Positions 2,479 to 25,112 of a stretch of 57,130 bases of DNA are shown in pieces (the stretch's first letter is position 1; each line of letters begins with the position of its first letter). A program made the position numbers and the translations under genes. The stretch lies in NCBI GenBank assembly GCA_015233115.1, contig JADFYJ010000017.1:1-57130 (forward strand). Direction: 5' to 3'. The notes beneath the pieces are model-generated. The model was given only the letters and a program-made list of their open reading frames with translations, had not been told where the DNA came from and made no database searches. This stretch comes from Candidatus Omnitrophota bacterium (GTDB taxonomy: Bacteria; Omnitrophota; Gorgyraeia; Zapsychrales; Zapsychraceae).

Positions 2479-2729
2479 GTGACCGAGTGACCGAGTAACC
2501 GAGTGACAGAGCAAAAGCGATTGATTGAAAAGCGAATATGCACCGGATAATATAGATTGAGAAATAAGTTTTTATAGCGATTGGCTCGGATAGCATTAGG
2601 ATAGAAGATGAACGATATAATTACAAAAATAAGAGGCAATAGAAAAAAGATAACAAATATCAGAAATTTTACTTAAAGTTTTTGTTTATAGTTTTTTGCT
2701 TTTTCTCTGTTACTCGGTTACCCTGTTAC
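2479..2729. repeat. Inverted pair of degenerate octamer arrays, lysS|lolC junction
   Basis: The left array at 2479-2511 is four units of period 8 (TGACCGAG, TGACCGAG, TAACCGAG, TGACAGAG). The right array at 2705-2729 is the reverse complement of the same words (CTCTGTTA, CTCGGTTA, CCCTGTTA) and ends about 6 bases before the lolC ribosome-binding site AAAAGG. The spacer is purine-rich on the left and T-rich on the right. No gene is seen in it. Confidence 0.85.
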
Positions 2730-2746
2730 TATTCAAAAGGAATTAA

Positions 2747-3940
2747 ATGAAATACGAACAATGGATCAGTTATCGGTATTTGACCGCTTCAAAAACCAGA
2801 TTTTTGAAGTTTTTGAATGTTATATCTATCGCGGGAGTGGCGATCGGTGTGGCTGCCTTGATTGTGGTTACAGCAGTGATGACGGGATTTGGTCATAATC
2901 TGCAGGAAAAAATTATTGGCACGACTCCGCATTTGATGGTTGAGAAAGAAACGGGTGTCAACGATTATGATAAGGTGGTCAGCAAAATTGAAGAAGTGGC
3001 AGGGGTACGCGCCGCTTCGCCGTATATTCAAGGCAATGTGTTTTTGGAACAATCAGGAAAAGCCATGGGTTTGGTTTTGCGGGGCGTAGTTCCTGAGACG
3101 GAAAAAAAGATCACCAAGGTTAAAGAATATTTAACAGAGGGAAAATGGGAAAATCTGCAAGACAACTCGATTTGCATTGGATCGGAATTAGCGGGATATT
3201 TTGGCTACCGGGTTGGAGATGAAATTACCGTCATTTCTCCCGGGTCAGGGATATCGGGACAGAGCTGGCGGTATAAATTAAAGATCGTCGGGATTTTTAC
3301 AACCGGCATGGCAGATTTTGATATGAATTTAGCCTTGGTTAATATAACCACCGGCCAAAAGATTTTTGGCGCGGCGGCTAATTATGCTTCCGGTATCGGG
3401 GTTAAGACCAGTGATCCCAAACAAGCTGACAGAATTAAAAAAGCTATTTATGAAAAAATTGGGTATAGTTTTTTAGTGCGGACCTGGATTGATATGAACC
3501 GGAGTTTATTTGAAGCTTTGTTTCTCGAAAAATGGGGATTGTTTATTGTTTTGACGTTAATGGTTTTAGTCGCGTCGTTTAATATTATTAGTACTTTAGT
3601 TGTGACGGTGTCGAGTAAGATTCATGATATTGGGATCCTGCAATCGATCGGGTTATCTCAAGCATCTATCCGCCGGATATTTACAAAACAAGGATTGTGG
3701 ATTGGGTTTTTAGGTACGTTCTGGGGACTGGTGAGCGGATTTGGCATTTGTTATTTTTTACGGCATTATATAAAAGTTCCGGCGCAGATTTATTCAATTG
3801 ATCATGTTCCGGTTGAAGTTAAAATGACCGATGTGGCCGCGATTATTATAGCCGCGGTCATTATCAGTTTTATCGCGACGATTTATCCGGCAGCTAAAGC
3901 AGCTAAATTGCAGCCGGTGGAGGCATTAAGATATGAATAA
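2747..3940 (+). CDS. lolC: Lipoprotein-releasing ABC transporter permease (LolC/LolE family)
   Basis: Inner-membrane permease that hands outer-membrane lipoproteins to the LolA carrier. The 397-residue protein has an N-terminal membrane segment (about residues 20-45, NVISIAGVAIGVAALIVVTA). A large periplasmic MacB-like core spans about 46-255, and three C-terminal membrane segments form the FtsX-type domain (about 263-290, 310-335, 360-385). It overlaps lolD by 8 bases. Only one permease gene is present, so the complex may be a homodimer of a LolC/E hybrid; this is inference. Confidence 0.92.
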   Translation: MKYEQWISYRYLTASKTRFLKFLNVISIAGVAIGVAALIVVTAVMTGFGHNLQEKIIGTTPHLMVEKETGVNDYDKVVSKIEEVAGVRAASPYIQGNVFLEQSGKAMGLVLRGVVPETEKKITKVKEYLTEGKWENLQDNSICIGSELAGYFGYRVGDEITVISPGSGISGQSWRYKLKIVGIFTTGMADFDMNLALVNITTGQKIFGAAANYASGIGVKTSDPKQADRIKKAIYEKIGYSFLVRTWIDMNRSLFEALFLEKWGLFIVLTLMVLVASFNIISTLVVTVSSKIHDIGILQSIGLSQASIRRIFTKQGLWIGFLGTFWGLVSGFGICYFLRHYIKVPAQIYSIDHVPVEVKMTDVAAIIIAAVIISFIATIYPAAKAAKLQPVEALRYE

Positions 3941-4610
3941 AATTTTAGAAGCGATTAATATACATAAAGTTTACCGGACCGAAGCCGCGGATCTTCCGGT
4001 TTTAAAAGGTGTTGATCTTTCGATCAATCAAGGGGATTTCGTTTCTATTGTCGGTCCGTCGGGCGCAGGTAAATCAACTTTATTGCATATTTTAAGCGGG
4101 TTGGATGTTCCGACTAAAGGGCAGGTTATGTTTGACGGACAGGATCTTTATGCGTTAAAAGATAATGACCGGGCTAAGATCAGGAATTTGAAGATTGGAT
4201 TTGTATTTCAGTTTTATCATTTGCTTCCGGAATTTACTGTTCTTGAAAATGTCGTTTTACCGGGCATGATTAAGGCGAATCAGGCTAAGACCAGAAATTT
4301 TGAAGAGCGAGGATATTCTCTGCTTACCCAGTTAGGTTTGAAAGATAGAGCTCAGCATCGGCCTTATCAATTATCGGGAGGTGAGCAGCAGCGGGTTGCT
4401 ATTGCGCGGGCATTATTTAACGAACCAACTATTATTTTTTGTGATGAACCGACTGGAAATTTAGACTCTGAAAGCGGCCGGGGCATTAAAGATATGTTAA
4501 GGCAAATTAACAAAAAAAATGGTCAAACATTGGTCGTGGTGACCCATGATACCGATTTTGCCACGCTTGCGGGGCGAAAAATTTCAATGAAGGATGGAAA
4601 ACTGATATGA
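3933..4610 (+). CDS. lolD: Lipoprotein-releasing ABC transporter ATPase LolD
   Basis: ATPase that powers lipoprotein release with the permease just upstream. Walker [10 protein letters not shown] (about residue 43), signature LSGGEQQR, Walker [14 protein letters not shown] and the switch histidine in VVVTHD are all present in 225 residues, the usual size. It starts inside the end of lolC and shares ATGA with the next gene, ilvE, so the three genes are probably translated in a coupled way. Confidence 0.94.
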
Positions 4611-5476
4611 AAATTTATTTGAACGGACAATTTGTGGATAGAGAAAAAGCGACAGTGTCTGTGTTTGATCACGGGCTTTTATATGGAGACGGCGCTTTTG
4701 AGGGGATTCGGTCTTATAATGGTCTAGTGTTTATGTTGGAAGAACACATTACCCGATTATACGAAACGTGTCATTCTATGATGATAATGTTGCCGCTCAC
4801 TCCAAAACAAATGATGGCCGCGGTGGTGGATACATTAAAGAAAAATAAACTCAAGGACGCGTATATCCGCTTGGTGGTAACGCGTGGTGAAGGTGACTTA
4901 GGTTTAGATCCTAAAAAATGTTATGGAAAACCAAACATTATTATTATTGCCGGCAAAATTACTTTGTATCCGCCTGAATTATATGAAAAAGGGATGGCAA
5001 TATGTACCGTGCCAACACCGCGCAATATGCCGGAAGCCATGAACCCTCGGTTGAAATCATTGAATTATTTGAATAATATTTTGGCTAAGATTGAAGCGGG
5101 CAATGCGGGTTTCAGCGAAGCCATTATGTTGGATCATATGGGCTTTGTCGCCGAGTGCACTGGGGATAATATTTTTATCATTAAAAATGGCATGTTATCC
5201 ACACCGAGTCAAGGGTGCCTCAAAGGGATTACCCGTGACGTAGTATTGGCCTTGGCGCAAAAAAACAAAATTAAGACGGAAGAACGGTTTATCACCCGAC
5301 ATGAGGTGTTTACAGCTGAAGAATGTTTTTTGACCGGAACAGCGGCGGAAATCATTCCTGTGGTTAAAGTGGACGGACGGCTGGTGGGAAGCGGCGTGCC
5401 TGGCCCGATGACTAAAAAATTAATCAAGCTATTTCATGCGGCAACGGCGAAATTGGGAACAGCATATAAAATATAA
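4607..5476 (+). CDS. ilvE: Branched-chain amino acid aminotransferase (PLP fold type IV)
   Basis: Transfers the amino group between glutamate and branched-chain 2-oxoacids, the last step of Val/Leu/Ile synthesis. The 289 residues carry the fold-type IV features: FDHGLLYGDGAFEGIRSY near the N-terminus, the probable PLP lysine in NPRLKSLNYLNN, and AECTGDNIFI around the cofactor phosphate site. D-amino acid aminotransferase and aminodeoxychorismate lyase share this fold, but the EGIRSY and LKSLNYLNN motifs favour IlvE. It overlaps lolD by four bases. Confidence 0.88.
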   Translation: MKIYLNGQFVDREKATVSVFDHGLLYGDGAFEGIRSYNGLVFMLEEHITRLYETCHSMMIMLPLTPKQMMAAVVDTLKKNKLKDAYIRLVVTRGEGDLGLDPKKCYGKPNIIIIAGKITLYPPELYEKGMAICTVPTPRNMPEAMNPRLKSLNYLNNILAKIEAGNAGFSEAIMLDHMGFVAECTGDNIFIIKNGMLSTPSQGCLKGITRDVVLALAQKNKIKTEERFITRHEVFTAEECFLTGTAAEIIPVVKVDGRLVGSGVPGPMTKKLIKLFHAATAKLGTAYKI

Positions 5477-5483
5477 CTGAAAA

Positions 5484-5572
5484 GTTAATGTTGTTGGTTT
5501 TTGGTTGTTGGTTTTTAGTTGTTGAACGCTTCGCTTTTTCCAAAAACCAAAAACTATCAACCATCAACCAAG
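5484..5572. repeat. Inverted pair of heptamer arrays, ilvE|mcsA junction
   Basis: The left arm (about 5484-5524) is built of 7-bp words such as GTTGGTT, TTTGGTT and TTTAGTT. The right arm (5540-5572) has the complementary words AACCAAA, AACTATC and AACCATC. The loop is only about 15 bases, so this is a near-continuous imperfect hairpin just upstream of mcsA. Confidence 0.8.
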
Positions 5573-5600
5573 TTATTAATTTATTAATAGGATATTTACC

Positions 5601-6092
5601 ATGCATTGTGAAAGTTGTGATAAAAATGAAGCAACAGTTCATTTAACTGAGATTGTAAATGGCGTAGTCCATGAATTTCATTTATGTGATAATTGTGCCA
5701 AGGTCAAGAGTTCCGAAGTGGAACAAAATTTTGGATTAGCAGATTTGTTGGCCGGATTATCCGCTGGGCCTAAAACACAGACTACCATCGCTACGATATG
5801 TAAAAATTGTGGTATCGCGTTTGAAGAATTCAGAAAAACAGGCCGTTTGGGCTGCAGTGAATGTTATCAGTCGTTTAAAATAGAATTAGCTTCACTATTG
5901 AAGCGCATCCATGGTTCAGCGCAACATTTCGGAAAGAAACCGGTTCTTTCCCAAGAGCAAGCGCTGGCCTCATCAGGTCAAAAAGAGTTGATGCAACTTA
6001 AGAATGAGTTGAAAGAAGCCATTGATCAAGAACAATTTGAAAAAGCCGCTCATTTGCGGGACAAAATAAAATCTTTAGAAAAAGGCGCATGA
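5601..6092 (+). CDS. mcsA: McsA, zinc-binding activator of the McsB arginine kinase
   Basis: Activates the protein arginine kinase McsB in the ClpC-dependent quality-control pathway. Of 163 residues, the N-terminal half has CxxC pairs for zinc (MHCESC, LCDNC, ICKNC, GCSEC). The C-terminus has a UVR motif (QLKNELKEAIDQEQFEKAAH), also found in ClpC and UvrB/C. It is followed by mcsB after a single base. No CtsR repressor gene precedes it, unlike the Bacillus operon. Confidence 0.92.
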   Translation: MHCESCDKNEATVHLTEIVNGVVHEFHLCDNCAKVKSSEVEQNFGLADLLAGLSAGPKTQTTIATICKNCGIAFEEFRKTGRLGCSECYQSFKIELASLLKRIHGSAQHFGKKPVLSQEQALASSGQKELMQLKNELKEAIDQEQFEKAAHLRDKIKSLEKGA

Positions 6093-6093
6093 T

Positions 6094-7146
6094 ATGCAAA
6101 TAAATGATTTCATTAATCACACCGGTGAATGGTTTAAGGGCAAAGGAGAGCATCCGGATATAGTCATGTCATCGCGCATCCGTTTGGCGAGGAATTTGTC
6201 ATTACGGGCATTTCCCAGCCGCGCGGCAAAAAAAGAGTTAAGCGCGATTTTGGATTTGGTCAAAGAGACCATGGATAAGATCCCCTATTTTAAAAATACT
6301 TTGTTTTTAAAGGTCAATGAACTTGATAATGTGGATAAACAATTTTTGATCGAGCGGCATTTGATGAGTCATGATCACGCGGAAAATCCCGAAGGCAGGG
6401 GATTGGTGGTTTCGCCGGAAGAAGTATTGTCAGTGATGATTAATGAAGAGGATCATTTGCGTATTCAAGTCATGCAGTCAGGTTTAAATTTGGACGAAAC
6501 CTGGAAAATTGCCAATTCGATCGATGATGAATTATCGAAATATTTGGAGTTCGCGTTTTCCTCGCAGTGGGGCTATCTGACCGCCTGTCCAACGAATACG
6601 GGGACTGCGATGCGCGGGTCTGTGATGGTGCATTTACCCGCGTTGGTGATGACAAAACAAATCAACAAAGTGTTGACCGCGGTGTCCAAGCTTAATTTTG
6701 CGGCGCGTGGTTTTTACGGTGAGGGTACCCAAGCCGCTGGGAATTTTTACCAGATTTCAAATCAGGTGTCACTCGGCCATAGTGAATTGGACGTGATCCA
6801 GAATATTAAGGGCTTGATTCTGCAGATTATTGAGCAGGAAGAGCAGGCTCGTCAAGCGCTTCTCGTGCAGAATAAAATTATGTTGGAGGATAAAATATTC
6901 CGTTCTTATGGGGTTTTAAGGAATGCTCATGTCATGTCGAGCCAGGAAACGATTGAGTTATTATCCATGCTCCGTCTAGGAATTGATTTGCATGTGGTGA
7001 AAGATGTAGACATTAAATCTGTCAACGAATTATTTATTATGATCCAGCCTGCGCATTTGCAGAAAATTGAAGGAAAAAAATTATCGTCGACCGAGCGGGA
7101 CAAAAAACGTGCCGCTTTGATCCGTGAAAAATTAGGAGGGAGCTAG
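6094..7146 (+). CDS. mcsB: Protein arginine kinase McsB
   Basis: Phosphorylates arginines on misfolded proteins and so marks them for ClpC/ClpP. The 350-residue protein belongs to the phosphagen-kinase fold. It shows [10 protein letters not shown] near the N-terminus, the NEED-type motif [10 protein letters not shown], and the active-site loop [15 protein letters not shown] with the family cysteine. It lies between mcsA and clpC with gaps of one and two bases, so the three genes surely form one operon. Confidence 0.95.
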
Positions 7147-7148
7147 AT

Positions 7149-9575
7149 ATGTTTAACCGATTTACAGAACGAGCCAGAAAAGTCATTGTTTTTGCTAAAG
7201 AAGAAGCGAAACGTTTTAATCACGATTATATCGGGACGGAGCATTTACTGCTCGGTTTGATCCGCGAAGGAGAAGGCGTTGCTGCCGCGGTGCTCATGAA
7301 AATGGGATTGGATTTAGAGTCCATCCGCATTGAAGTTGAAAAATTTGTACAGCCTGGTCCGCCGACACAAGTGATCGGAGATATTCCGTTTACGCCACGA
7401 TCTAAAAAGGCTTTGGAGCTCGCAGCTGAAGAAGCCCGCGCCTTAGGTCACAACTATATCGGGACGGAACATTTGTTACTCGGTTTGGTTAAAGAAGGGG
7501 AAGGCATGGCTTACCGGGTCCTTTTAAGTTTGGGATTGGACTTGGGAAAATTGCGGAATGAAATTATGGAATTATTAGGTTCCGGAATTCCGGGTTATGG
7601 ACAGCCAGAACAACCGCAGGCTAAAGCTAACACAAAAACTCCGGCGATTGATGCATATGGCCGTAATTTGAATCAATTTGCTATTGACGGAAAATTAGAT
7701 CCGGTCATTGGCCGCGCTGGAGAAATTGAACGTATTTTACAGATTTTAAGTCGTAGGACCAAGAACAATCCGGTTCTTTTAGGAGAGGCGGGAGTGGGTA
7801 AAACCGCCATTGTGGAAGGCTTGGCGCAGAGAATCGTTGAAGGCAATGTGCCGGAAATTTTAAGAGAAAAAACCATCGTGGTGTTGGATATCGCGCTCAT
7901 GATCGCTGGCACAAAATACCGCGGTCAGTTTGAAGAGCGGATTAAGTCAGTTATGGATGAGATCAAGAGGTCAGGAAAAATTATTTTATTTGTCGATGAG
8001 CTCCATACTTTAGTCGGCGCTGGAGCCGCTGAAGGAGCTATTGATGCTGCTAATATTTTAAAACCAGCATTAGCCCGTGGAGAAATTCAATGCATCGGCG
8101 CAACGACGTTGGATGAATACCGCAAGTATATTGAAAAAGACGCGGCTTTAGAACGTCGTTTTCAAACCATTGTTGTGGAGCCGCCCTCGATTGATGAGAC
8201 GATTTTGATTTTAAAAGGTTTGAGGGATAAGTATGAAGCGCATCATCGGGTCAAATTTTCTGATGAAGCTTTAGACGCGGCAGTCCGTTTATCTGAACGC
8301 TACATCTCCGGAAGGGCGTTGCCGGATAAGGCCGTGGATATTCTCGATGAAGCCGGTTCACGCGCCCGATTAAAAGCCATGGTTGCTCCGCCGGATGTGA
8401 AAGAGCTGGAAGTGGAAATTGAAAAATTCCGCAAGGAAAAAGAGTCCTATATTAAAAGTCAGAATTTTGAAAAAGCGGCACAGATGCGCGACCAGGAACG
8501 CGAAGTGCGGGAAAAATTGGAAAAAATCAAGCAGGATTGGGCTGAAGCCCGTGATAAAGTTACTCCGGTTTTGGGATACGAAGATATCGCGCTCGTGGTA
8601 TCACAATGGACCAAAATTCCGTTAGTCCGTTTAGAGCAGGAAGAAAGTCAGAAACTTTTGAAAATGGAAGAAAAAATGCGCCAGCTGGTTATTGGCCAAG
8701 AAGAAGCGATCAGCGCCATGGCGCGCGCGATCCGTCGTTCCCGCGCAGGGATTAAAGATCCCCGCCGGCCGATTGGTTCATTTGTGTTTCTGGGGCCGAC
8801 TGGAGTTGGAAAGACTTTGTTAGCCCAGGTTTTGGCTGAATTTATGTTCGGCAGTAAAGAAGCTTTGCTGCAGATCGATATGTCAGAGTATATGGATAAA
8901 TTCAATGTGTCCCGTTTGATTGGGGCTCCGCCGGGTTATGTGGGTTATGAAGAAGGCGGACAATTAACTGAGAAAGTGCGTCGTAAACCGTATTCGGTGA
9001 TTTTACTCGACGAAATCGAAAAAGCGCATCCGGATGTTTTTAATCTTTTATTACAAGTGTTTGAAGAAGGCCGGTTAACCGATAGTTTGGGACGGAAAGT
9101 GGATTTCCGCAACACGATTATTTTGATGACTTCGAACGTCGGAGCGGAAATGCTTAAGAAGCAAGGCTCGCTGGGTTTTGGAAAACAGAACGACGACGTG
9201 AATTATGACCATATGAAATCCCGGCTATTGGATGAAGTGAAAAAACATTTTAAACCCGAATTTCTTAACCGTATTGATGAGATCATTGTGTTTAAATCTT
9301 TAACGAGAGAAAATTTGGATAAAATTGTGCAATTAGAAATCAAAGGCGTGTTTGGACGGTTAAAAGATAAAAATATTGAATTAGACATCCCCGCGGATAC
9401 CATTGAATTTTTGATCACCAAAGGCTTTGATCCTATCTATGGCGCCCGGCCTCTTAAAAGAACGCTGCAACGCTATTTGGAAGATCCGTTGTCTGAGTAT
9501 ATCATCTCAGGCCAGGTGAAAGACGGGCAAAAAATCAAAGCGGTCCTAAAAGGGGATACGGTTGTATTTGAATAG
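7149..9575 (+). CDS. clpC: AAA+ unfoldase ClpC
   Basis: Hexameric ATP-dependent unfoldase that feeds substrates to ClpP. In 808 residues it has a double Clp-N repeat (about 1-145, with two copies of [11 protein letters not shown]), a first AAA+ module (Walker A GEAGVGKT) and a UVR-containing middle domain ([14 protein letters not shown]). A second AAA+ module (Walker A GPTGVGKT) follows. The LGF tripeptide in QGSLGFGKQ is in the place of the ClpP-docking loop. clpP is not in this window. Confidence 0.97.
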
Positions 9576-9621
9576 CAACAATAGGTTACAACGATGGACG
9601 AATGACGAGGATGAGTGATCC

Positions 9622-9665
9622 CTGAACCGCGTAGGGTTCAGAGCTATAAACCACGTGGGGTTTAT
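9622..9665. repeat. Two adjacent small hairpins with AACC/GGTT stems
   Basis: CTGAACC, loop GCGTAG, GGTTCAG at 9622-9641, then ATAAACC, loop ACGTGG, GGTTTAT at 9646-9665. Both share AACC-RCGTRG-GGTT while the stem ends differ. A third copy on the other strand lies at 33838-33859. They lie in the 127-base gap between clpC and the next gene. Confidence 0.6.
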
Positions 9666-9702
9666 GGGAAAAGCGAATAAACAGGATACAAGATATAGCT
9701 GA

Positions 9703-10665: not shown

Positions 10666-10670
10666 TAAAA

Positions 10671-11006
10671 GTAACCGAGTAACAGAGTAACAGAGTAACA
10701 GAGAAAAGGCGGTTGTTGAAAAAGCCAACGGATGGAGCAACAAAGAAAAAACAACTGATGGAGAAATGAGTGGGCGATGAAAAAAGGATTGAGTTATAAA
10801 TAAAATTTTGCATTACATTTGAAAAAGGCTATTAAATAAAAAGTAAAATAATTGATTTCAATAAGTGTTTTTTAGATTTTTGAAATTTATTTATCGGTTT
10901 TATTTTCTGTGTTGTTTATCCATTTTTTGTTATTCGTTTTTTGTTTTACTGCTTTGGTTTTTATTGCTTTTACTCGGTTACTCTGTTACTCGGTTACTCT
11001 GTTACT
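10671..11006. repeat. Inverted pair of octamer arrays, junction before radA
   Basis: Left array 10671-10703: four octamers of the TAACMGAG type. Right array 10971-11006: four complementary octamers alternating CTCGGTTA and CTCTGTTA, ending just before the radA ribosome-binding site AAGGA. The roughly 265-base spacer has no convincing gene. Its left half is rich in A and G, its right half very T-rich, so the whole gap is quasi-complementary. Confidence 0.88.
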
Positions 11007-11020
11007 TATAAGGATATGGC

Positions 11021-12385
11021 ATGGCTAAAGATAAAAGTATGTTTGTCTGTCAGGAATGCGGGTCGCAGTCGCCGCGCTGGGTGGGGAAATGCCCGGGGTG
11101 TGACGCGTGGAATACTTTGGTGGAGGAGAAAACGCGGCATGTTGAGAAAAAACACGCGCATTTAATTTCAGATTCCAAGCCGGTGGTGTTGAGTCAAGTT
11201 TCCACGAAAGATGAAGAACGGTATGTGACGGGCATTAAAGAATTTGATAATGTGATGGGTTCGGGCATTGTGCGGGGATCTGTCACTTTAATCGGCGGTG
11301 ATCCTGGGATCGGTAAATCAACGTTAGCCTTGCAAGTGAGCTGCGCGCTCAGTCAAAAAGGCAACCGGGTTTTATATGTGAGCGGTGAGGAATCAATCCG
11401 CCAAACCAGTTTGCGGGCAGAACGATTAATTCAAAAACCGACTGACAGTATGTATTTGGTCAGTCAGGTTGATTTGGCGGTTATTTTAGAGCATATTGAA
11501 CAATTCTCGCCGGACGCGGTGGTGATTGATTCTATTCAAGTGGTTTATACGTCGGATATTCTTTCATCGCCGGGAAGCGTTTCCCAAGTGCGGGAGTGCG
11601 CGGCGATTTTAACGCATTTGGCTAAAGCTAAAGGCATCGCGTTATTTTTGATCGGGCATGTCACTAAAGAAGGCGCGATCGCGGGCCCCCGGGTTTTAGA
11701 GCATATTGTTGATACAGTTTTATATTTTGAAGGCGAACGTTATTCATCTTACCGGATTTTGCGCGGGACCAAGAATCGATTTGGGTCGACGAATGAAATT
11801 GGTGTTTTCGAAATGACGGGACTGGGGCTTAAAGAAGTGGATAATCCGTCAGAAATATTTTTATCCGAGCGGCCGGTGAATTCGTCAGGATCGGTGGTCG
11901 TGCCGATTGTGGAAGGGACCAGGCCGTTTCTGGTTGAGATCCAGGGGCTGGTCAGCCGGAGCGCGTTTGGCATGGTGCGACAAAAGGCGCAAGGGTTTGA
12001 TGCCAATCGTTTAGCGCTTTTAATTGCGGTGTTGGAAAAACGTATGGGCTTAAGTTTGCAGGATAAAGATGTGTTTGTTAATGTCGTCGGAGGAGTGAAA
12101 CTGATTGATCCTGCCGCGGATTTGGCGGTGGTGGTGACTGTCGCGTCAGCGTTATTGGATAAACCTGTTCCGTCGGATGTGGTGTTTATCGGTGAAGTGG
12201 GTTTAGCGGCTGAAGTGCGCAGTGTCAGCCAGATTTCTGCGCGGCTTAAAGAAGCGGAAAAATTGGGTTTTAAGCGTTGCGTGATGCCTAAAAATAATTT
12301 AAAAGCAGGGTCAGATATAAAAACAAATTTAAAAATCGTCGCAGTCGAGAATGTGAGACAAGCGCTGGAAGTTTTGGGTAAATAG
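11021..12385 (+). CDS. radA: DNA repair protein RadA
   Basis: RecA-related DnaB-like helicase that drives branch migration in recombinational repair. The 454 residues hold an N-terminal four-cysteine zinc motif (CQEC...CPGC), a RecA-like ATPase with Walker A GGDPGIGKST, the RadA-specific KNRFG motif (in GTKNRFGSTNE), and a C-terminal Lon-protease-like domain. Length is typical. The last base of its stop codon lies next to the heptamer array that starts at 12384. Confidence 0.96.
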   Translation: MAKDKSMFVCQECGSQSPRWVGKCPGCDAWNTLVEEKTRHVEKKHAHLISDSKPVVLSQVSTKDEERYVTGIKEFDNVMGSGIVRGSVTLIGGDPGIGKSTLALQVSCALSQKGNRVLYVSGEESIRQTSLRAERLIQKPTDSMYLVSQVDLAVILEHIEQFSPDAVVIDSIQVVYTSDILSSPGSVSQVRECAAILTHLAKAKGIALFLIGHVTKEGAIAGPRVLEHIVDTVLYFEGERYSSYRILRGTKNRFGSTNEIGVFEMTGLGLKEVDNPSEIFLSERPVNSSGSVVVPIVEGTRPFLVEIQGLVSRSAFGMVRQKAQGFDANRLALLIAVLEKRMGLSLQDKDVFVNVVGGVKLIDPAADLAVVVTVASALLDKPVPSDVVFIGEVGLAAEVRSVSQISARLKEAEKLGFKRCVMPKNNLKAGSDIKTNLKIVAVENVRQALEVLGK

Positions 12386-12543
12386 TATGTGGTATGTGGC
12401 ATGTCGTATGTAGCAAACGATTGGCTGTATAAGCAAAGGGTAAATTAACAAAATGATTTTTTAGAAATTTCAGAGTGTTTTATTTAAAAATTATTAGGAG
12501 TTTTTTTCAATGACTACATACGACATGCTACGCACTACATGCT
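12384..12543. repeat. Inverted pair of heptamer arrays, radA|PIN-TRAM junction
   Basis: Left 12384-12413: GTATGTG, GTATGTG, GCATGTC, GTATGTA. Right 12513-12543: complementary words (CTACATA, CGACATG, CTACGCA, CTACATG), ending about three bases before the AAAAGGAG site of the next gene. The left array begins inside the radA stop codon. Confidence 0.88.
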
Positions 12544-12559
12544 CAAAAGGAGTTAATTT

Positions 12560-13537: not shown

Positions 13538-13563
13538 TAAGCGCACGGTTTATGATTGCGCAT

Positions 13564-13640
13564 CAACGCTGTAACCTGTCTTCGCTCAAACAGCAGCTCC
13601 GAAGCGGAGCTGAACTCGCTCGGGACAGGTCACAGCGTTG
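13564..13640. repeat. Nested hairpin element with fixed internal loop (copy A)
   Basis: Outer stem CAACGCTGTAACCTGTC (13564-13580) pairs 16 of 17 with 13624-13640. The fixed word TTCGCTCAAACAG follows at 13581-13593. The inner hairpin is CAGCTCCG, loop AAG, CGGAGCTG (13594-13612), then the fixed word AACTCGCTCGG (13613-13623). Weaker pairing continues outward to about 13541 and 13667. Confidence 0.9.
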
Positions 13641-14372: not shown

Positions 14373-14856
14373 ACAAAAAGTCGGTATTGGGTATGACATT
14401 CACCGTTTTGTGCCGGGACGAAAACTGGTTTTAGGCGGGGTTGAAATTCCTTATGAGCAGGGATTAGACGGCCATTCTGACGCGGATGTGTTACTGCACG
14501 CGGTGTGTGACGCGATTTTAGGCGCACTGGGCAAGGGGGATATTGGTGAACACTTTCCCAATACGGACCCGGCTTACAAAGATATATCGAGTATGGTTTT
14601 ATTAGGAAAAGTTAAACAACTTTTGGATGAAGAAAATTTTCAGGTTGTGAATTTGGACTGTGTGGTGCAGGCGGAAGCGCCTAAAATTAAAGATTTTAAG
14701 CCCCAGATGAAATTTCATCTGGCGTATCAATTAGTTGTCGACGAAGATTGTATTAACATCAAAGCCACGACGCAAGAAGGATTAGGCGCGATTGGACAGA
14801 AGCAAGGCATTGCGGCGTACGCAGTCGTTTTAATTGAAAGTAACAAAGTAACATAG
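14365..14856 (+). CDS. ispF: 2-C-methyl-D-erythritol 2,4-cyclodiphosphate synthase
   Basis: Fifth MEP-pathway enzyme, a zinc-dependent homotrimer that releases CMP. The metal ligands are in GYDIHRF and in GHSDADVLLHAVCD; 163 residues is normal. Its last codons (SNKVT) are written by TAACAAAG/TAACATAG octamers, so the intergenic repeat array has grown into the coding end. Confidence 0.95.
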   Translation: MVKQKVGIGYDIHRFVPGRKLVLGGVEIPYEQGLDGHSDADVLLHAVCDAILGALGKGDIGEHFPNTDPAYKDISSMVLLGKVKQLLDEENFQVVNLDCVVQAEAPKIKDFKPQMKFHLAYQLVVDEDCINIKATTQEGLGAIGQKQGIAAYAVVLIESNKVT

Positions 14857-15083
14857 TACGCAGCGATAAAGCGCGCGGTAGGACGGTTTGCATTTAAACC
14901 AAATCCTTCGCTCAAACAACCTTGGCGAAGCGCCAAGGAAACTCGCTCGGGGATTCGGTTTTAACGCCAACCTTTAGTTTGGGCACGCGGTTAAAAAATA
15001 TATTTGAAAATGTCAGGTTGTTATTTTTTTTGTTTAGTTTTTCTCTGTTACTCGGTTACTTGGTTACTTGGTTACTCTGTCAC
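14837..15083. repeat. Inverted pair of octamer arrays, ispF|cysE junction
   Basis: The left arm 14837-14858 (period 8, TAACAAAG, TAACATAG) overlaps the end of ispF. The right arm 15043-15083 consists of CTCTGTTA, CTCGGTTA, CTTGGTTA and CTTGGTTA words and ends just before the cysE site AAAAAAGGA. The spacer also contains the nested hairpin at 14885-14972. Confidence 0.78.
14885..14972. repeat. Nested hairpin element with fixed internal loop (copy B)
   Basis: The outer arms 14885-14906 and 14951-14972 pair at 18 of 22 positions. The fixed word TTCGCTCAAACAA is at 14907-14919. The inner hairpin is CCTTGGCG, loop AAG, CGCCAAGG (14920-14938). The fixed word AAACTCGCTCGG is at 14939-14950. Confidence 0.9.
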
Positions 15084-15101
15084 TTTAAAAAAGGATAAGA
15101 T

Positions 15102-15788: not shown

Positions 15789-15792
15789 ATTT

Positions 15793-15888
15793 TAATGGTT
15801 AATGGTTCGTGGTTTTTAGTTTTTGGTTAACAGCAAAAACAAAACTTGGGAACTCAACAACCAAAAACCATCAACCAAAAATCGTCAA
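15793..15888. repeat. Inverted pair of heptamer arrays, cysE|cysS junction
   Basis: Left 15793-15828: five heptamers (AATGGTT, AATGGTT, CGTGGTT, TTTAGTT, TTTGGTT). Right 15855-15888: complementary AACAACC, AAAAACC, ATCAACC and AAAAATC. The loop is about 26 bases. The array lies directly before the cysS start at 15900. Confidence 0.85.
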
Positions 15889-15899
15889 CTTATTTAACT

Positions 15900-17300: not shown

Positions 17301-17917
17301 AAAAAGGTTTGTTTATAACATTTGAAGGATCCGAAGGTTCGGGGAAAAGTACTCAAATCGAATTTTTGCGTCAATATTTGGTAAAAAGGCGGAAGAAGGT
17401 TATGTTGCTGCGTGAACCAGGCGGCGTTGCCATCAGCGAAAAAATCAGAGCGATCCTGTTGGATGTGTGCAATAAAAAAATGGGTAGCGAGTGTGAAACT
17501 CTGTTATATTTGGCAGCACGAGCCCAGTTGGTATATGAAGTAATAGCCCCGGCATTGACAAAAGGTTATATAATTTTGTGCGACCGGTTTATGGATTCGA
17601 CTGTCGCGTATCAAGGTTATGGCAACGGCGTAGATATTGAACAAATTTACGAGATCGGAAATTTCGCGACCGGAGGCGTAAGCCCGGATTTGACTTTTAT
17701 TTTTGATCTGGACGCGGAAAAAGGTTTGGCCCGGATTAAACGGCAGAAAGACCGGATTGAACAGCGTAAAATGGACTATCATAAACGGGTCCGTTTAGGC
17801 TATCTGGCCATTGCCAAAAAAGAACCGCAAAGAGTAAAAATGCTCGACGCCACCCGAACTAAGGAAAATTTACAACAGGAAATACAGAGAATAATAAAAA
17901 TGGTATTTGGTATGTAG
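17297..17917 (+). CDS. tmk: Thymidylate kinase
   Basis: Phosphorylates dTMP to dTDP. Walker A FEGSEGSGKST, the LREPGG motif, the DRF motif in LCDRFMDSTVAYQG and an arginine-rich lid region are all seen in 206 residues. I chose ATG 17297, which overlaps the cysS stop and has GGAG six bases upstream, over the in-frame ATGs at 17285 and 17291. The last four codons (VFGM) and the stop are made of GTATGT-type heptamers. Confidence 0.94.
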   Translation: MKKGLFITFEGSEGSGKSTQIEFLRQYLVKRRKKVMLLREPGGVAISEKIRAILLDVCNKKMGSECETLLYLAARAQLVYEVIAPALTKGYIILCDRFMDSTVAYQGYGNGVDIEQIYEIGNFATGGVSPDLTFIFDLDAEKGLARIKRQKDRIEQRKMDYHKRVRLGYLAIAKKEPQRVKMLDATRTKENLQQEIQRIIKMVFGM

Positions 17918-18092
17918 TATGTCGTATGTGGCAAACGACTGTAGTAGTGATTCGTGAAAAGCCTTATAAAAAACTCATTGACGAGAAATTAGATGGCAGA
18001 AAAGAAATTGTCTTTTTGTCATTCCCGCGAAAGCGGGAATCTATATAAAATTTATTTTTTTACTACATACCACATACGACATACTACATACG
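17902..18092. repeat. Inverted pair of heptamer arrays, tmk|holB junction
   Basis: Left 17902-17933: GGTATTT, GGTATGT, AGTATGT, CGTATGT, starting inside tmk. Right 18061-18092: complementary CATACCA, CATACGA, CATACTA and CATACG words, 13 bases before holB. The same word family is used at the radA junction (12384). A separate palindrome lies in the spacer. Confidence 0.88.
18018..18041. repeat. CATTCCCGCGAAAGCGGGAAT palindrome
   Basis: ATTCCCGC, GAAA, GCGGGAAT with flanking GTC and C. This is a repeat type common between genes of many bacteria. Another copy is at 23642-23667. Confidence 0.85.
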
Positions 18093-18105
18093 ATTAATAT
18101 ATTTT

Positions 18106-19074: not shown

Positions 19075-19092
19075 TCCCGCATAAGGAGATTT

Positions 19093-19962
19093 ATGGCAAA
19101 TGTCGTTAAAGCACAACTCGGAGAATACCGTTCGATCGAGTTTTTTGAGATTGGAGATTTAGAATTCAAGCGCGGAGATTACGCGATTCTGGAAGTTGAC
19201 CGTTCATACGAGTTTGGCCGGTTGGTTTCTACGACGAAAATTCCTGCCGATGATAAAGCAGCTGCGCCCGCAGGAAAAGTGGTGCGGTTAGCCACTTTAG
19301 GGGATTTAAAACAAATAGAGAATAACCGGATGAAAGCCAAAGACGCGATGCGTTCTTGTTTAAGTAAGATCAGCGAGCGGCAATTGGATATGCAGATGGT
19401 TAAATCCGAATACACGTTTGATAGCAGTAAAATTATATTTTATTTTACGTCAGAAGGCCGCGTTGATTTCCGTAATTTAGTCAAAGACTTGGCCCGGGTA
19501 TTTCGTGTACGTATCGAACTGAAACAAATCGGCGTACGGGATCGTTCTAAAATTATTAAAGGGCATGGTTTATGCGGGCGCGATTTATGTTGTGGTTCAT
19601 ACATGCATGATTTTCATCCATTGTCGATTAAAATGGCGAAAGAACAGAATTTGCCGCTTAATCCGTCGAGAATATCCGGCGTGTGTGGGCGGATTAAATG
19701 CTGTATGTCTTATGAATATCTGGTGTACAAAGAATTGGCCCGGACTTTACCGCGAATAGGCGACAAAGTGGATCTTCCTGAGGGCAAAGGCCGCATTATT
19801 GACATCAATGTTTTAAAACGCTGTGCCAGTATTGATTTGGGCGAAGGGTATGTGATCCGGAAAGTTTTTGATACAAAAGACGCGGTTAAAAAAACAGAAA
19901 CAGGAAAAAAGGACGATGACAACGAAGTTTTATCTGACGACTCCGATTTATTACGTGAATGA
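19093..19962 (+). CDS. ricT: PSP1-domain protein RicT (YaaT family)
   Basis: In Bacillus, RicT with RicA and RicF forms an Fe-S complex that acts on RNase Y-dependent RNA processing. The 289 residues include the PSP1 core and the cysteine-rich signature GLCGRDLCCGSY followed by GVCGRIKCCMSYE. The six cysteines suit Fe-S binding. ATG 19093 has AAGGAG upstream. The C-terminus is charged and overlaps metG by 47 bases. Confidence 0.92.
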   Translation: MANVVKAQLGEYRSIEFFEIGDLEFKRGDYAILEVDRSYEFGRLVSTTKIPADDKAAAPAGKVVRLATLGDLKQIENNRMKAKDAMRSCLSKISERQLDMQMVKSEYTFDSSKIIFYFTSEGRVDFRNLVKDLARVFRVRIELKQIGVRDRSKIIKGHGLCGRDLCCGSYMHDFHPLSIKMAKEQNLPLNPSRISGVCGRIKCCMSYEYLVYKELARTLPRIGDKVDLPEGKGRIIDINVLKRCASIDLGEGYVIRKVFDTKDAVKKTETGKKDDDNEVLSDDSDLLRE

Positions 19963-21412
19963 TAGGCCGCACATTGGCCATGCGTACACGACGATATTAG
20001 CTGATGTATTAGCCCGCTTTCATCGCCAGGCAGGCGATGAGGTGTTTTTTTTAACGGGTTTGGATGAGCACGGACAAAAAGTTTTGCAAGCCTCCCAGGC
20101 TCGCGGCTTAACGCCTCAACAGCATTGCGATGACTTGGCTCCGCGGTTTTCGCAATTATGGGAAAAGCTGGGAATTTCTAATGACGATTTTATCCGCACG
20201 ACCCAAGACCGTCATAAAAAAGTGGTGCAAGCTGTCCTGCGAAAAGTTTATGAAAAAGGCGATATTTATCAGAGTGAATATGAAGGCTGGTATTCTGTCG
20301 CGGAAGAGCGTTTTATAACGGAAACAGAAAAGGAGTCCGGTGAGTTTCGCGACGTAAAAATGCTCAAAGAACGCAATTGGTTTTTCCGCATGAGTCAGTA
20401 TCAACAAAAACTGATAGACCACATCAATGCGCATCCTCAGTTTATTCAACCAGAACACCGCAAAAATGAAATTTTAGGTTTTCTCCGTCAACCCTTGACC
20501 GATTTGTGTATATCTCGCCCTAAATCAAGAATGGGCTGGGGCATTGAACTGCCGTTTGATACAGAATACGTGACTTATGTCTGGTTTGACGCGCTTTTGA
20601 ATTATTTGACCGGTGTGGGTTATTTGACAGAGGATGATAAATTTAAAAAATGGTGGCCAGCGTCATTGCATTTGCTGGGCAAAGATATTTTGACCACGCA
20701 TTCTGTGTATTGGACGACTATGTTATTTTCATTAGACTTGCCGCTTCCGGAGACTATTTTCGCGCACGGGTGGTGGATGCTGGGCGAATCCAAGATGAGC
20801 AAATCCGTCGGGAATGTGGTTAATCCTTTAGACCTGGTTGATCAGTTTGGGGTTGATCCGGTCAGATATTATTTGATGCGGGAAATGATCCCAGGGCAGG
20901 ACGCGCATTTTACTATGGAATCGTTTGTTAAGCGGTTTAATAGTGATCTGGCTAATGATTTTGGCAATCTGTTAAACCGTGTCAGCGGACTTATTCCAAA
21001 ATATTTTAATGCTATTGTGCCTGAACCCGGCGCCTTAACACCGGAAGATCAGCATATCCAAACGATTGCCGAGAATTTACAGAATAAAGTGCCGGGTTTG
21101 ATTAAAGAACTTAAGGTGAGTGAGGCGATTGAAGAGATTTTACAATTAATCCGCGCCGTCAATAAATACATGGAACAGCAGGCTCCCTGGAAATTGGCTA
21201 AAGAAAATTTACCGGCAGCCGGACGGGTTTTGTATGTTGCCTCCGAGGCATTGCGGATCAGCGCTTTACACTTATCGCCAGTTATGCCCGCGAAAACCGA
21301 TACAGTTTTAAATGTGTTAGGAGCCAAAGGCAGTTCACCCCAATGGGGCGGATTAAAACCCGGCACAAAATTAGGCGAACACGGAGCATTGTTTCCGAGA
21401 ATAGAAAAATAG
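19916..21412 (+). CDS. metG: Methionyl-tRNA synthetase
   Basis: Class I synthetase that charges tRNA-Met. HIGH motif in DRPHIGHAYTT and KMSKS in ESKMSKSVGN. At 498 residues it lacks the C-terminal tRNA-binding domain found in longer forms, and no zinc-knuckle cysteines are visible. The frame opens at 19868, but ATG 19916 with AAAAGGA upstream (MTTKFYLTTPIYYVN) fits the family start. Confidence 0.94.
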   Translation: MTTKFYLTTPIYYVNDRPHIGHAYTTILADVLARFHRQAGDEVFFLTGLDEHGQKVLQASQARGLTPQQHCDDLAPRFSQLWEKLGISNDDFIRTTQDRHKKVVQAVLRKVYEKGDIYQSEYEGWYSVAEERFITETEKESGEFRDVKMLKERNWFFRMSQYQQKLIDHINAHPQFIQPEHRKNEILGFLRQPLTDLCISRPKSRMGWGIELPFDTEYVTYVWFDALLNYLTGVGYLTEDDKFKKWWPASLHLLGKDILTTHSVYWTTMLFSLDLPLPETIFAHGWWMLGESKMSKSVGNVVNPLDLVDQFGVDPVRYYLMREMIPGQDAHFTMESFVKRFNSDLANDFGNLLNRVSGLIPKYFNAIVPEPGALTPEDQHIQTIAENLQNKVPGLIKELKVSEAIEEILQLIRAVNKYMEQQAPWKLAKENLPAAGRVLYVASEALRISALHLSPVMPAKTDTVLNVLGAKGSSPQWGGLKPGTKLGEHGALFPRIEK

Positions 21413-21615
21413 GTCACAAGGACACAAAGTCACAAGGTCACAAAGGGAAAGTTTTATAAAAACAACGAAATAAAACGTGCATATTTGATTATATTAATAA
21501 ATTGTTTGATATTCTTAAGTTTTAAATTTTTTTGTTTTATTTTTATTTATGGCTTTTTGCTTTTTTTATCTTTATTGGCCTTTGTGACCTTGTGTCCTTG
21601 TGACATTGTGACCTT
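21412..21615. repeat. Inverted pair of octamer arrays, metG|mtnA junction
   Basis: Left 21412-21447: GTCACAAG, GACACAAA, GTCACAAG, GTCACAAA, starting at the last base of the metG stop. Right 21577-21615: complementary TTTGTGAC, CTTGTGTC, CTTGTGAC, ATTGTGAC. The spacer has A-rich and T-rich halves that can also pair loosely. No gene seen. Confidence 0.88.
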
Positions 21616-21635
21616 TTAAAAAAGGATAGAACTTT

Positions 21636-22679
21636 ATGTCAATTTCGACCATTGTTTGGAAAAAAGATCACGTGCGGTTAATTGATCAGACTAAATTACC
21701 CCATGAATTAGTTTATTTGGATTGTTATGATGTAGAACCATTGTGTGACGCGATTAAGCGGTTGAGTGTGCGCGGCGCTCCGGCTTTGGGGGTGGCGGCT
21801 GGGTTTGGCGTTCTTTTGGGGATTAAAGATTTCACCGGACACGATCGGCATTTGTTTAACGCGCACATTGAGCAGGTTTGCGCGCAAATCGGCGCTTCTC
21901 GTCCGACTGCGGTTAATTTATTTTATGCCTTAGACCGGATGCAGATGGTGGTGGAGAAGCATCCTCACGAGGACGTTCCTGCCGTGTGCCGTTTACTGGA
22001 AAAAGAAGCTATGGCCATGTTTAAAGAAGATCAGCAAGTGTGCCGGCAAATGGGAAATTTCGGCGCAAAGTTAATTCGTAAGGGCGGGACGTATATTACA
22101 GTTTGTAACGCGGGCGCATTAGCGACTTCAGATTACGGGACAGCTTTAGGGGTTTTTTATAGCGCGCAAGCGGAAGGCAAAGATTTTAAAGTGTTTTCCT
22201 TAGAGACCCGTCCTTTGTTGCAGGGAGCGCGGTTGACGGTTTGGGAATTAATGCAAAGTAAGATTGATGTCACCTTGATCTGTGACAATATGGCCGCTTC
22301 GGTCATGAAAAATCAAAAGATCGACGGGATTTTTGCCGGAGCTGACCGGATTGCATCTAACGGTGACGCGGCGAATAAAATCGGAACTTACATGTTAGCT
22401 GTTTTGGCGAAATATCACAAAGTGCCGTTTTATATTGTGGCGCCGGAATCGACATTTGATTTAAGCATCAAGAGCGGTGAACAGATTCCCATAGAACAAC
22501 GCGGGGCGGATGAAGTCCGCTCGTTTGGGGGGTGCAAAACAGCGCCGGATAAAGTCAAAGTGTTTAACCCGGCTTTTGATGTAACAGACCATGGTCTGAT
22601 CAAAGGGATTGTGACGGAAAAAGGCATTATCACCCCTCCGTTTAAAACCAACATCAAACGGGCATTTCTCAATGGTTAA
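21636..22679 (+). CDS. mtnA: Methylthioribose-1-phosphate isomerase
   Basis: Converts methylthioribose-1-phosphate to the ribulose form in methionine salvage. The 347 residues show SVRGAPALGVAAGFGV, ETRPLLQGARLT (around the active-site region) and GADRIASNGDAANKIGTY, typical of MtnA and its eIF2B-like fold. No other salvage genes are nearby. It overlaps thiL by eight bases. Confidence 0.94.
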   Translation: MSISTIVWKKDHVRLIDQTKLPHELVYLDCYDVEPLCDAIKRLSVRGAPALGVAAGFGVLLGIKDFTGHDRHLFNAHIEQVCAQIGASRPTAVNLFYALDRMQMVVEKHPHEDVPAVCRLLEKEAMAMFKEDQQVCRQMGNFGAKLIRKGGTYITVCNAGALATSDYGTALGVFYSAQAEGKDFKVFSLETRPLLQGARLTVWELMQSKIDVTLICDNMAASVMKNQKIDGIFAGADRIASNGDAANKIGTYMLAVLAKYHKVPFYIVAPESTFDLSIKSGEQIPIEQRGADEVRSFGGCKTAPDKVKVFNPAFDVTDHGLIKGIVTEKGIITPPFKTNIKRAFLNG

Positions 22680-23580: not shown

Positions 23581-23613
23581 GTGACAATGTAACAGTGTGA
23601 CAATGTGACAGTG
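23581..23613. repeat. Octamer array after thiL without a matching right arm
   Basis: Units TGACAATG, TAACAGTG, TGACAATG, TGACAGTG of period 8. The junction's other end (23731-23754) carries unrelated heptamers (CTATGGC, CTATAGC, CTATTTC), so here the two arms do not pair. Confidence 0.75.
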
Positions 23614-23641: not shown

Positions 23642-23720
23642 GTCATTCCCGCGAAAGCGGGAATCCAGAAAAATCAGTTTTATTATTAATGGATCCCCGA
23701 TTAAAGCACTCGGGGATGAC
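23642..23720. repeat. Pair of inverted ATTCCCGC-type repeats
   Basis: GTCATTCCCGCGAAAGCGGG begins at 23642. A facing relative at 23689-23720 starts TGGATCCCCG and ends CTCGGGGATGAC. The two face each other and resemble a BIME-like pair in the thiL-tsaE gap. Confidence 0.75.
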
Positions 23721-24208: not shown

Positions 24209-24221
24209 TATAAGGATATTT

Positions 24222-24314: not shown

Positions 24315-24324
24315 GTATAATTTT

Positions 24325-25020
24325 ATGAAATTATTATCATTCGACACTTCATCTAAAATATTTTCCCTCGCTTTAAGTGATAACGGGAAAATTGTGCGTT
24401 ACCGCAATTTGGAATTGGGAAAACAGCTTTCTTCGGATATTACGAAATATATCCGGGATATTTTAAAATCGGTTGATTGGACTCTGAATGATCTGGACGG
24501 CTTTGCGGTTGGGGTTGGCCCGGGATCATTCACGAGTTTACGGGTGGGCTTAGCCACTGTTAAAGCTTTGGCTTTGGCTTTGGATAAACCGATTGTTGGC
24601 ATATGCAGTTTGGATTTGATCGCTATGAACGCTTCGCGCGATTTTCAACATGTTTGCGTGATCAACGATGCCCGCCGGGATTTGGTGTATGCCGCGTTTT
24701 ACGATTTGACTTCGGAGGGAAATTTCCGACGGGGTGGCGACTATTTATTGACTGATCTCAGGACGGTTATTACAAAAATTAAAAAAAAGTTTGCCATTTT
24801 GGGCGATGCTGTAACAATGATTGAAGAGGCTGACCGCGTCCGATTGCTTAAACTAGGTTGTGAGATCTCGGAAGATGAACGCCGGTGGTATCCCAAAGCG
24901 CAAAATTTGTCAAAAGCGGTTGAGGAACGGTTTCAAAACAAAAAATTTGATGATCCCAATAAATTAGTGCCAATGTATTTACACGCGGACGACTGTCAGA
25001 TAAATAGAGGTAATAGGTAA
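24325..25020 (+). CDS. tsaB: tRNA threonylcarbamoyladenosine synthesis protein TsaB
   Basis: Scaffold partner of TsaD in t6A37 synthesis. The 231-residue protein starts MKLLSFDTSSKIFSLAL and carries GVGPGSFTSLRVGLATVKAL. The frame continues upstream to 24220, but that part is translated palindrome, so ATG 24325 is preferred. It ends with the Asn/Arg-rich tail typical of short TsaB forms. Confidence 0.93.
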   Translation: MKLLSFDTSSKIFSLALSDNGKIVRYRNLELGKQLSSDITKYIRDILKSVDWTLNDLDGFAVGVGPGSFTSLRVGLATVKALALALDKPIVGICSLDLIAMNASRDFQHVCVINDARRDLVYAAFYDLTSEGNFRRGGDYLLTDLRTVITKIKKKFAILGDAVTMIEEADRVRLLKLGCEISEDERRWYPKAQNLSKAVEERFQNKKFDDPNKLVPMYLHADDCQINRGNR

Positions 25021-25045
25021 AAAATAAAATAAATAATATGTTTTT

Positions 25046-25112
25046 CCTATGGCCTATAGCCTTTGCAAGTAAGTGCCTTTACAAGCAAGTGCCTTTAAAA
25101 GTTAAGTGCCTA
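25046..25112. repeat. Short tandem-word array before alr
   Basis: CCTATGG/CCTATAG heptamers, then three copies of AAGTGCC spaced 16 and 17 bases (25071, 25087, 25104). It resembles the right arms at other junctions. The matching left arm after tsaB is weak (AGAGGTAATAGGTAA). Confidence 0.6.

Follow-up and report, generated by a model that had tools for sequence, protein, structure and literature searches.

Paired tandem arrays in a housekeeping region

The stretch analysed here, called the window, comprises 57,130 nucleotides of a Candidatus Omnitrophota bacterium (positions 1-57130 of contig C8 in a genome of 2.39 Mb) and has a GC content of about 41%. The part of interest carries housekeeping genes: lysS, a MacB/FtsX permease gene, an aminotransferase gene, a UVR-motif gene, a guanido phosphotransferase gene (mcsB-like), a clpC-like and a radA-like gene, a PIN/TRAM gene, ispD, ispF, a hexapeptide transferase gene, cysS, tmk, the DNA polymerase III delta' gene, metG, an IF-2B-family gene, an AIRS gene and alr. 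At junctions between these genes lie short tandem arrays of degenerate words, one after the stop codon of the upstream gene (stop side) and an inverted one before the downstream gene (start side). Genes were called with our own hexamer-score caller instead of a standard annotator.

A sequence-only reading of this DNA had named eight such inverted pairs. When the stop-side and start-side regions were aligned at 12 junctions of the window, all eight were recovered, with arms of 21-63 nt that were 74-87% complementary (Table 1). The upstream genes of these junctions end at 2473, 5476, 10665, 12385, 14856, 15788, 17917 and 21412. The periods of 7 or 8 and the words that change from junction to junction were also returned by Tandem Repeats Finder. 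The arrays at 23581 and 25046, described earlier as unpaired or partial, behaved in this way: junction 23574 was unpaired and the arms at junction 25020 were at best weakly related. In the same alignment no array was detected at junction 9575, and the inverted repeat at junction 13537 was non-periodic. Parts of the CCAAAAACCAAAAACTATCAACC core of the array before the UVR-motif gene were found again at other junctions.

Table 1. Tandem arrays at the gene junctions of the window, with the positions complementary between the two arms of a pair
Array	Position	Strand	Remark
Stop-side 8-mer array (GTGACCGA/GTAACCGA) after lysS	2478..2511	+	
Start-side array, reverse complement of the lysS-junction word class, before MacB/FtsX permease gene (lolC-like)	2705..2730	-	28/33 complementary
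Stop-side 7-mer array (GGTTNTT) after aminotransferase class IV gene	5490..5524	+	
Start-side array, GGTTNTT class, before UVR-motif gene (mcsA-like)	5540..5570	-	25/31 complementary
Stop-side 8-mer array (GTAACMGA)	10670..10703	+	
Start-side array before radA-like gene	10970..11006	-	39/45 complementary
Stop-side 7-mer array (GTATGTN), overlaps stop of radA-like gene	12385..12415	+	
Start-side GTATGTN array before PIN/TRAM gene	12514..12543	-	25/30 complementary
Stop-side 8-mer array, overlaps end of ispF (YgbB)	14837..14858	+	
Start-side GTWAC array before hexapeptide-transferase gene	15043..15085	-	18/21 complementary
Stop-side 7-mer array (GGTTNNT)	15792..15828	+	
Start-side array before cysS	15855..15889	-	25/34 complementary
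Stop-side GTATGTN array, overlaps end of thymidylate kinase gene	17901..17931	+	
Start-side GTATGTN array before DNA polymerase III delta' gene	18061..18091	-	30/37 complementary
Stop-side 8-mer array (GTCACAAR) after metG	21411..21445	+	
Start-side array, GTCACAAR family, before IF-2B-family (mtnA-like) gene	21582..21615	-	48/63 complementary; aligned with 8 other copies
Unpaired 8-mer array (GTGACAAT/GTAACAGT)	23581..23613	+	
Period-16 array before alr, counterpart after upstream stop weak	25059..25111	-	

Arrays across the genome and the matching of their arms

The arrays were then counted in 1.19 of the 2.39 Mb of this genome (G000), and in two further Omnitrophota: 0.39 of about 2.0 Mb of a congener (G001) and 0.36 of about 1.1 Mb of a genome from family f33 of the same class (G386). 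The samples are mostly first contigs, with no random draw, and the score thresholds for arrays varied among the analyses from 9 to 14. The first sample of G000 was picked after hits had been seen; the 853-kb and 1.19-Mb sets add pieces picked without that knowledge. Between the genes of the 853-kb set, runs with a score of at least 12 numbered 57 at period 7 and 51 at period 8, against 0-5 at each other period from 4 to 13. Inside genes there were 0-4 at any period and 3 each at periods 7 and 8. A 453-kb sample held 25 period-7 and 34 period-8 runs, compared with 1 each in one Markov copy; this copy gave exactly 1 run at nearly every period, probably owing to a stretch of N of the kind that later scripts leave out. 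The three-unit pattern GTWACNNN had 175 (overlapping) matches in the whole genome, its reversed form had 2, and 0 matches were found in the 36 relatives searched, G001 included.

A census of junctions with spacers of 50-900 bp was made in the 1.19-Mb sample. The sequence-only reading had placed the arrays at co-directional junctions. They were present at 122/485 of these, and equally the convergent or divergent junctions carried them (13/53), so they are not confined to co-directional junctions. Arrays at both edges of the spacer occurred at 34/485 co-directional junctions and at 0/53 of the others (Fisher p = 0.039); when the partner test was loosened, paired arrays numbered 57/485 and 2/53 (p = 0.10). 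The two arms had the same period at 34/34 both-edge junctions, which was reached in 0 of 100,000 shuffles, the best of them giving 28. The order of the units was not matched within a class. A same-class permutation test, applicable to 31 of the 34 pairs, gave p = 0.79 (14 pairs), 1.0 (4), 0.60 (6) and 0.06 (7). Since an arm's own partner was no better than same-class partners from other junctions, the arms pair by class. Unit-by-unit copying between arms was considered as well and was not seen within the classes.

The placement of the arrays was regular. The stop-side array starts at a median of 4 nt past the stop codon, and the start-side array ends at a median of 19 nt ahead of the next start. 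The array was G-rich on the coding strand in 63/82 cases after stops and in 12/65 before starts, and the same strand rule was seen at convergent (4/4) and divergent (0/3) junctions. The heptamer GCGATTG was found just inside 18/82 stop-side arms and 0/65 start-side arms, with an expectation of 0.006 per arm, and CGATTG[AG]TG lay on the coding strand of the preceding gene in 24 of its 25 intergenic occurrences. The composition of the spacers was asymmetric, much as had been noticed in the window: in the inner spacers (30 of 34) the left half had 45% A and the right half 56% T. This was absent from spacers without arrays (45 drawn from 210), which had 32% A and 33% T.

Comparison with a congener

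LysS of the congener G001 is 86% identical to that of G000 across 306 residues, and orthologous junctions could be compared. At the 17 array junctions the median gap was 215 bp in G000 and 13 bp in G001, and in G001 it was at most 42 bp at 12 of them. At 52 orthologous junctions without an array the medians were 19 bp and 10 bp, respectively. Within the window, the gap at junction 10665 is 355 bp here vs 3 bp in G001, and that at junction 12385 is 174 bp vs -4 bp. The counts retain some array calls that are low-complexity A/T-rich runs, such as C11 249627 in this comparison. An array call in G001 only was made at 3 further orthologous junctions. G001 is poor in arrays, with 3 period-7 and 2 period-8 runs between genes in 391 kb.

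Word classes as dispersed families

We then compared the sequences just inside the arrays at unlinked junctions. A near-copy of the 14-nt inner flank was found for 16/24 stop-side arms of the GTWAC class, 11/19 of GTATG, 4/13 of GGTT and 5/10 of GTCACAA, where letter-shuffled flanks gave 3.8, 3.0, 0.7 and 0.5, respectively. Start-side flanks exceeded their shuffles for GTCACAA (5/7 vs 1.4) and GGTT (7/18 vs 3.0). Nine GTCACAA elements, selected for having arrays at both ends, could be aligned end to end with a mean pairwise identity of 0.68, a value that includes the arrays and has no shuffled control. In a GTATGT subfamily, seen in three copies with two arms and one copy with a single arm, additional hairpins flank the arrays on the outside. 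When the arrays were masked, 57 of 101 array-bearing spacers were similar to another one (E < 1e-4), partly via unrelated palindromes; low complexity contributes to this similarity, because a reversed-sequence control gave 19 hits at the same threshold. At the level of sequence, each of the four word classes tested behaves like a dispersed family whose inner flank is conserved, at least on the stop side.

A second lineage

The G386 genome has 63.5% GC in its first stretches and is 78% complete. In 360 kb it has 71 period-7 and 4 period-8 runs between genes; another 21 period-7 runs fall inside gene calls, some of which are probably miscalled genes. Paired arms were found at 27/139 co-directional, 2/11 divergent and 3/10 convergent junctions, making 32 pairs with a median loop of 15 nt. 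The G386 versions are denser and shorter-looped than those in G000 and again use many words: 26 canonical words, with close variants counted separately, were found among 41 pairs. Some word classes, three as judged by eye, have loops in common. The mismatches between arms cluster at one phase of the word (0.58 in G386 and 0.48 in G000, vs 0.41 for random), and mismatches of the same base make up 77/192 in G386 and 77/308 in G000.

The same junctions were followed through family f33; the locus counts include second loci of one genome (e.g. L204, L205, L239, L240). Between rpsD and rpoA the spacer is at most 53 bp at 22/26 loci, and a paired-array insert is present in two genomes, G386 and G398, with related words. 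Between atpA and atpG it is at most 6 bp at 12/15 loci, and the inserts of G386 and G398 use different words (CGAATTG and AAGGTAAA). At atpG-atpD (14 loci) the words are CCAAATC in G386 and the 8-mer GGAGGAAC in G398. Since the same junctions are filled with different words in the two genomes, the trait recurs with new words. Among the 26 rpoA-rplQ loci, those of two other genomes received array calls, and in a third genome an inverted repeat is present without such a call. The trait is not universal: in 99 kb of G103, a genome picked for its GTCTGTN matches, we found 0 strong intergenic period-7/8 runs and one weaker array, so this genome is almost without them. As the comparison of the genomes shows, at least two Omnitrophota lineages have spacers that are insertions when set against their relatives and that are bounded by inverted, class-matched 7/8-mer arrays.

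Predicted folding of the read-through RNA

The arms had been proposed to loop out the spacer in mRNA, so that the stop codon comes to lie next to the following start. For 34 junctions the read-through RNA was folded with its own arm, with an arm of the wrong class and with a shuffled arm. As that proposal would have it, the mean predicted energy was lowest with the own arm (-63.6 kcal/mol, vs -41.9 with the wrong-class arm and -44.0 with the shuffled arm), and the mean number of inter-arm pairs was 23.6, vs 6.1 and 8.4, respectively. At least 12 inter-arm pairs were predicted at 32/34 junctions and fewer at 2/34, and 33/34 were more stable than with the wrong-class arm. The proposal is supported as far as class-matched arms and strong predicted pairing go; a dedicated bridge from stop to start is not supported as the purpose of the arms.

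On the coding strand, G.U pairs outnumbered A.C mismatches by 99 to 61 in 63 arm pairs of G000, and by 84 to 54 in 75 pairs. This excess fits selection at the RNA level, and a C-to-T mutation bias on the coding strand would give the same. It is no general proof, because the sign is reversed in G386 (29 vs 49). The inner spacers showed no pairing beyond their composition, 17/30 folding lower than half-wise shuffles, while no-array spacers did somewhat better against theirs (33/45 lower). The idea that the whole spacer is a palindrome was rejected.

Relation to known repeats

Degenerate heptanucleotide repeats occur on both stem sides of P6b in the cyanobacterial tRNA-Leu intron; these lie inside a group I intron, whereas the arrays described here bound intergenic insertions. 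The TAACTGA repeats of other bacteria are related to the short tandemly repeated repetitive sequences (STRRs) of cyanobacteria. Both are unpaired direct arrays of one word, unlike the paired arms and many words found here. MacGregor (2015, PMC4679880) describes TAACTGA direct repeats in Beggiatoaceae, cyanobacteria and Bacteroidetes as heptamer arrays by start codons, strain-specific in their presence, with shorter spacers in some close relatives; in BOGUAY a single word makes up 169 direct sets and one inverted repeat.

The pairing itself had been thought new, which does not hold. Rehm et al. (2015, PMC4692102) describe intergenic degenerate heptamer arrays of GGGAATC and GGGGA(C/T)T in Xanthomonas and Nostoc. 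Most of the Xanthomonas arrays follow stops at 0-50 bp on the coding strand or precede starts on the non-coding one; inverted, convergent pairs of arrays number 70 in Xcc and 75 in Xac, with no tie to one gene function in the account given there. In the arrays studied there, each genus has one G-rich word type, read as a G-quadruplex former and associated with genomic stability. The arrays here share with that type the degenerate 7-bp tandem units between genes, with period 8 in addition, and the convergent inverted pairs. One shared G-rich word capable of forming a G-quadruplex was not found; instead there are many words, mostly without G-tracts. Beyond that type go the two periods, the class-matched arms, the spacers longer than those of relatives and the flanks of multicopy families. 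Paired inverted heptamer arrays were therefore known before; new are the many words, the choice of 7 or 8 bp and the insertion shown by comparison. The searches made here found no literature joining Omnitrophota, intergenic and tandem repeats.

REPINs are doublets of repetitive extragenic palindromic (REP) sequences that form hairpins and are linked to REP-associated tyrosine transposases (RAYTs) (Bertels and Rainey 2011, PMC3116915). In that account they are inverted repeats with spacers, scattered through extragenic DNA and predicted to fold into hairpins as single-stranded DNA or mRNA, with several groups per genome. The dispersed, multicopy and extragenic families found here are similar. 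However, REP units are over-represented conserved palindromes, and the arms here are tandem arrays with a class-specific word; a RAYT flanked by the same repeat was not found in G386 or among the 6 Y1_Tnp genes of G000. Miniature inverted-repeat transposable elements (MITEs) are resembled in the terminal inverted repeats.

Interpretation and alternatives

We consider it likely that short, non-coding insertion elements, dispersed and of REPIN- or MITE-like architecture, have entered compact junctions many times, and that the arrays form their inverted ends. Each family would have its own 7- or 8-bp word in about 2-8 repeats per arm, together with a looser inner sequence that may differ between the stop and start ends, and the elements would move as units. 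In the polycistronic mRNA the arms would join in a stem of about 20-35 interrupted base pairs and loop out the insert, with the stop codon and the following ribosome-binding site outside the stem. Looping-out probably makes the insertions tolerable: it may let them survive in essential operons because polarity or RNA decay is kept low, and would not be a dedicated device for translational coupling. In DNA, the same arms would be a likely recognition or intermediate structure.

Several observations weigh against this explanation. About half of the array junctions are without a detected partner arm, as 57/122 co-directional ones are paired at a score of at least 14. The start-side flanks of two classes are not clearly beyond their shuffles (GTWAC 14/20 vs 15.0, GTATG 8/12 vs 6.0); the flank test covers the arms of four classes, and another 53 arms belong to other classes; in G386 the AGCACAC and GGAAGCT classes have dissimilar loops; and the GTATGT subfamily with outer hairpins stands in both orientations relative to the genes. 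The polarity of insertion depends on a single congener and 69 junctions, and 5/17 array junctions are long-spacered there too. By eye, a multicopy palindrome that belongs to G001 itself is present in three of these five spacers, in two cases next to a different array; the other two look coding, so the gene calls differ between the genomes. No target-site duplication was found, shared outer 5-mers occurring at 16/34 junctions vs a permuted mean of 13.3. In the 10 genomes searched, no transposase showed a link to the elements; IS200-like Y1_Tnp genes number 6 in G000, 3 in G001, 1 in G398, 1 in the array-poor G103, 0 in G386 and 0 in G169. The RNA folding, finally, is a prediction.

In an alternative account the arrays grew in place, by local polymerase slippage in steps of 7 or 8 bp and hairpin template switching that copies the word to the opposite arm, so that no element moves. 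The strict period in genomes of about 41% (window) and 63% GC with unrelated words is in line with this, as are the different unit orders in arms of one class and the lack of a target-site duplication. However, slippage does not predict that inner flanks and some loops are conserved within a word class at unlinked junctions, and template switching should have copied the unit order too. We regard this origin as unlikely. Somewhat less likely still is the earlier reading of the paired arms as a regulatory RNA device for translational coupling. The class-matched arms and their strong predicted folding, the confinement of the G000 both-edge pairs to co-directional junctions, the short distances to the stop and the next start and the G.U excess in G000 all speak for it. 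But paired arrays also sit at 5/21 convergent or divergent junctions of G386, where no stop-to-start bridge is possible, and loosely at 2/53 in G000; G386 has no G.U excess; and most relatives have a compact junction already, so nothing needed bringing together.

The arrays might also be binding sites of a repeat-reading protein, as proposed for the TAACTGA repeats of Beggiatoaceae; their position by start and stop codons resembles that described by MacGregor (2015, PMC4679880). The many words per genome, 26 among the 41 G386 pairs, argue against such sites, as does the form of the BOGUAY repeats, where the same article counts one word and one inverted repeat among 170 sets, and we hold this to be very unlikely. 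A fixed protein-binding word was rejected, as the words differ among the arrays of one genome and, at a given junction, from genome to genome. Transcription terminators or attenuators, which the long stems right after stop codons would suggest, are scarcely credible here: the arrays have housekeeping genes of one strand on either side, rpsD-rpoA and the atp genes among them, the 10 nt after the right arm have just 35% T in G000 and 25% in G386, and the GC-rich stem with a T-run of an intrinsic terminator was not found. From 2000 to 21800 in the window, 28 terminator-like sites (vs 20.0 +/- 3.9) were predicted and 0/28 overlap an arm. Promoter-like sites were not enriched in the same region (49 vs 42.6 +/- 5.9), and a few lie inside array spacers, e.g. 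at 2525, 10777 and 18076.

Within the explanation by insertion elements, we offer one tentative and rather doubtful extension. The machinery that makes or moves the elements might recognise, in place of a sequence, a stem with interruptions at intervals of 7 or 8 bp, so that unrelated words would serve and the period would be its footprint; the clustering of mismatches at one word phase and the many same-base mismatches are offered in support. If true, such word-agnostic mobile hairpins would offer a general route by which DNA can enter essential operons and leave them intact. The earlier reports of heptamer arrays (PMC4679880, PMC4692102), in the parts drawn on here, give no settled explanation. 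With matched inverted pairs that mark insertions at otherwise compact junctions and use many words but two periods, the constrained features (period, inversion, position) can be told apart from the free one (the word), and the origin of the arrays and their tolerance can be put to the test.

Other repeats and related observations

RAYT/IS200 transposases were rejected as the mover, as they had no association with arrays in the 10 genomes searched and in the 6 Y1_Tnp neighbourhoods of G000. One of these 6 genes is adjoined by strong period-7/8 arrays and one by a weak run. The window itself holds an IS200-like Y1_Tnp gene (PF01797, E 9.7e-13) at 36265-36921, with no 7/8-mer arrays beside it. 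A palindromic core, CCACCGACGCGGTG, lies upstream of lysS (window about 965-1001) and on both sides of the Y1_Tnp gene near 14742 of contig C2; this core and the C2 gene are possibly a true REP/RAYT pair.

The spacer before lysS contains a long imperfect inverted repeat, GGGTTGTTGAAAAACGC...GCATTTTTGAACAACCC, which is MITE-like (about 713-834). Multicopy palindromic repeats of the GCGCGCGGTAGG..TTTAAACC family and GTCATTCCCGCGAAAGCGGGAATC occur within array spacers, in the window at about 14870-14993, 18018-18041 and 23642-23665; the first of these, in the spacer of junction 14856, is unrelated to the arrays.

In other Omnitrophota, the same gene neighbourhood has paired arms with other words, of the CGAAATC type (L042, spacer after 4430) and the GACACAA type (L073, spacer after 4069). 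In G386, array DNA is seemingly read as N-terminal extensions of ribosomal-operon proteins (L148, 11071-11379 and 14749-15375; e.g. NPKSAIRNPKF). The start sites may be wrong there, or the arrays may have been captured as coding sequence. In IMG/VR, 4 stretches carry an GTAACNGA array and 14 an CAATCCGC array, with inverted partners in 4/18, and the contigs L251, L252, L259 and L261 have several 7-mer arrays each, some of them with inverted partners.

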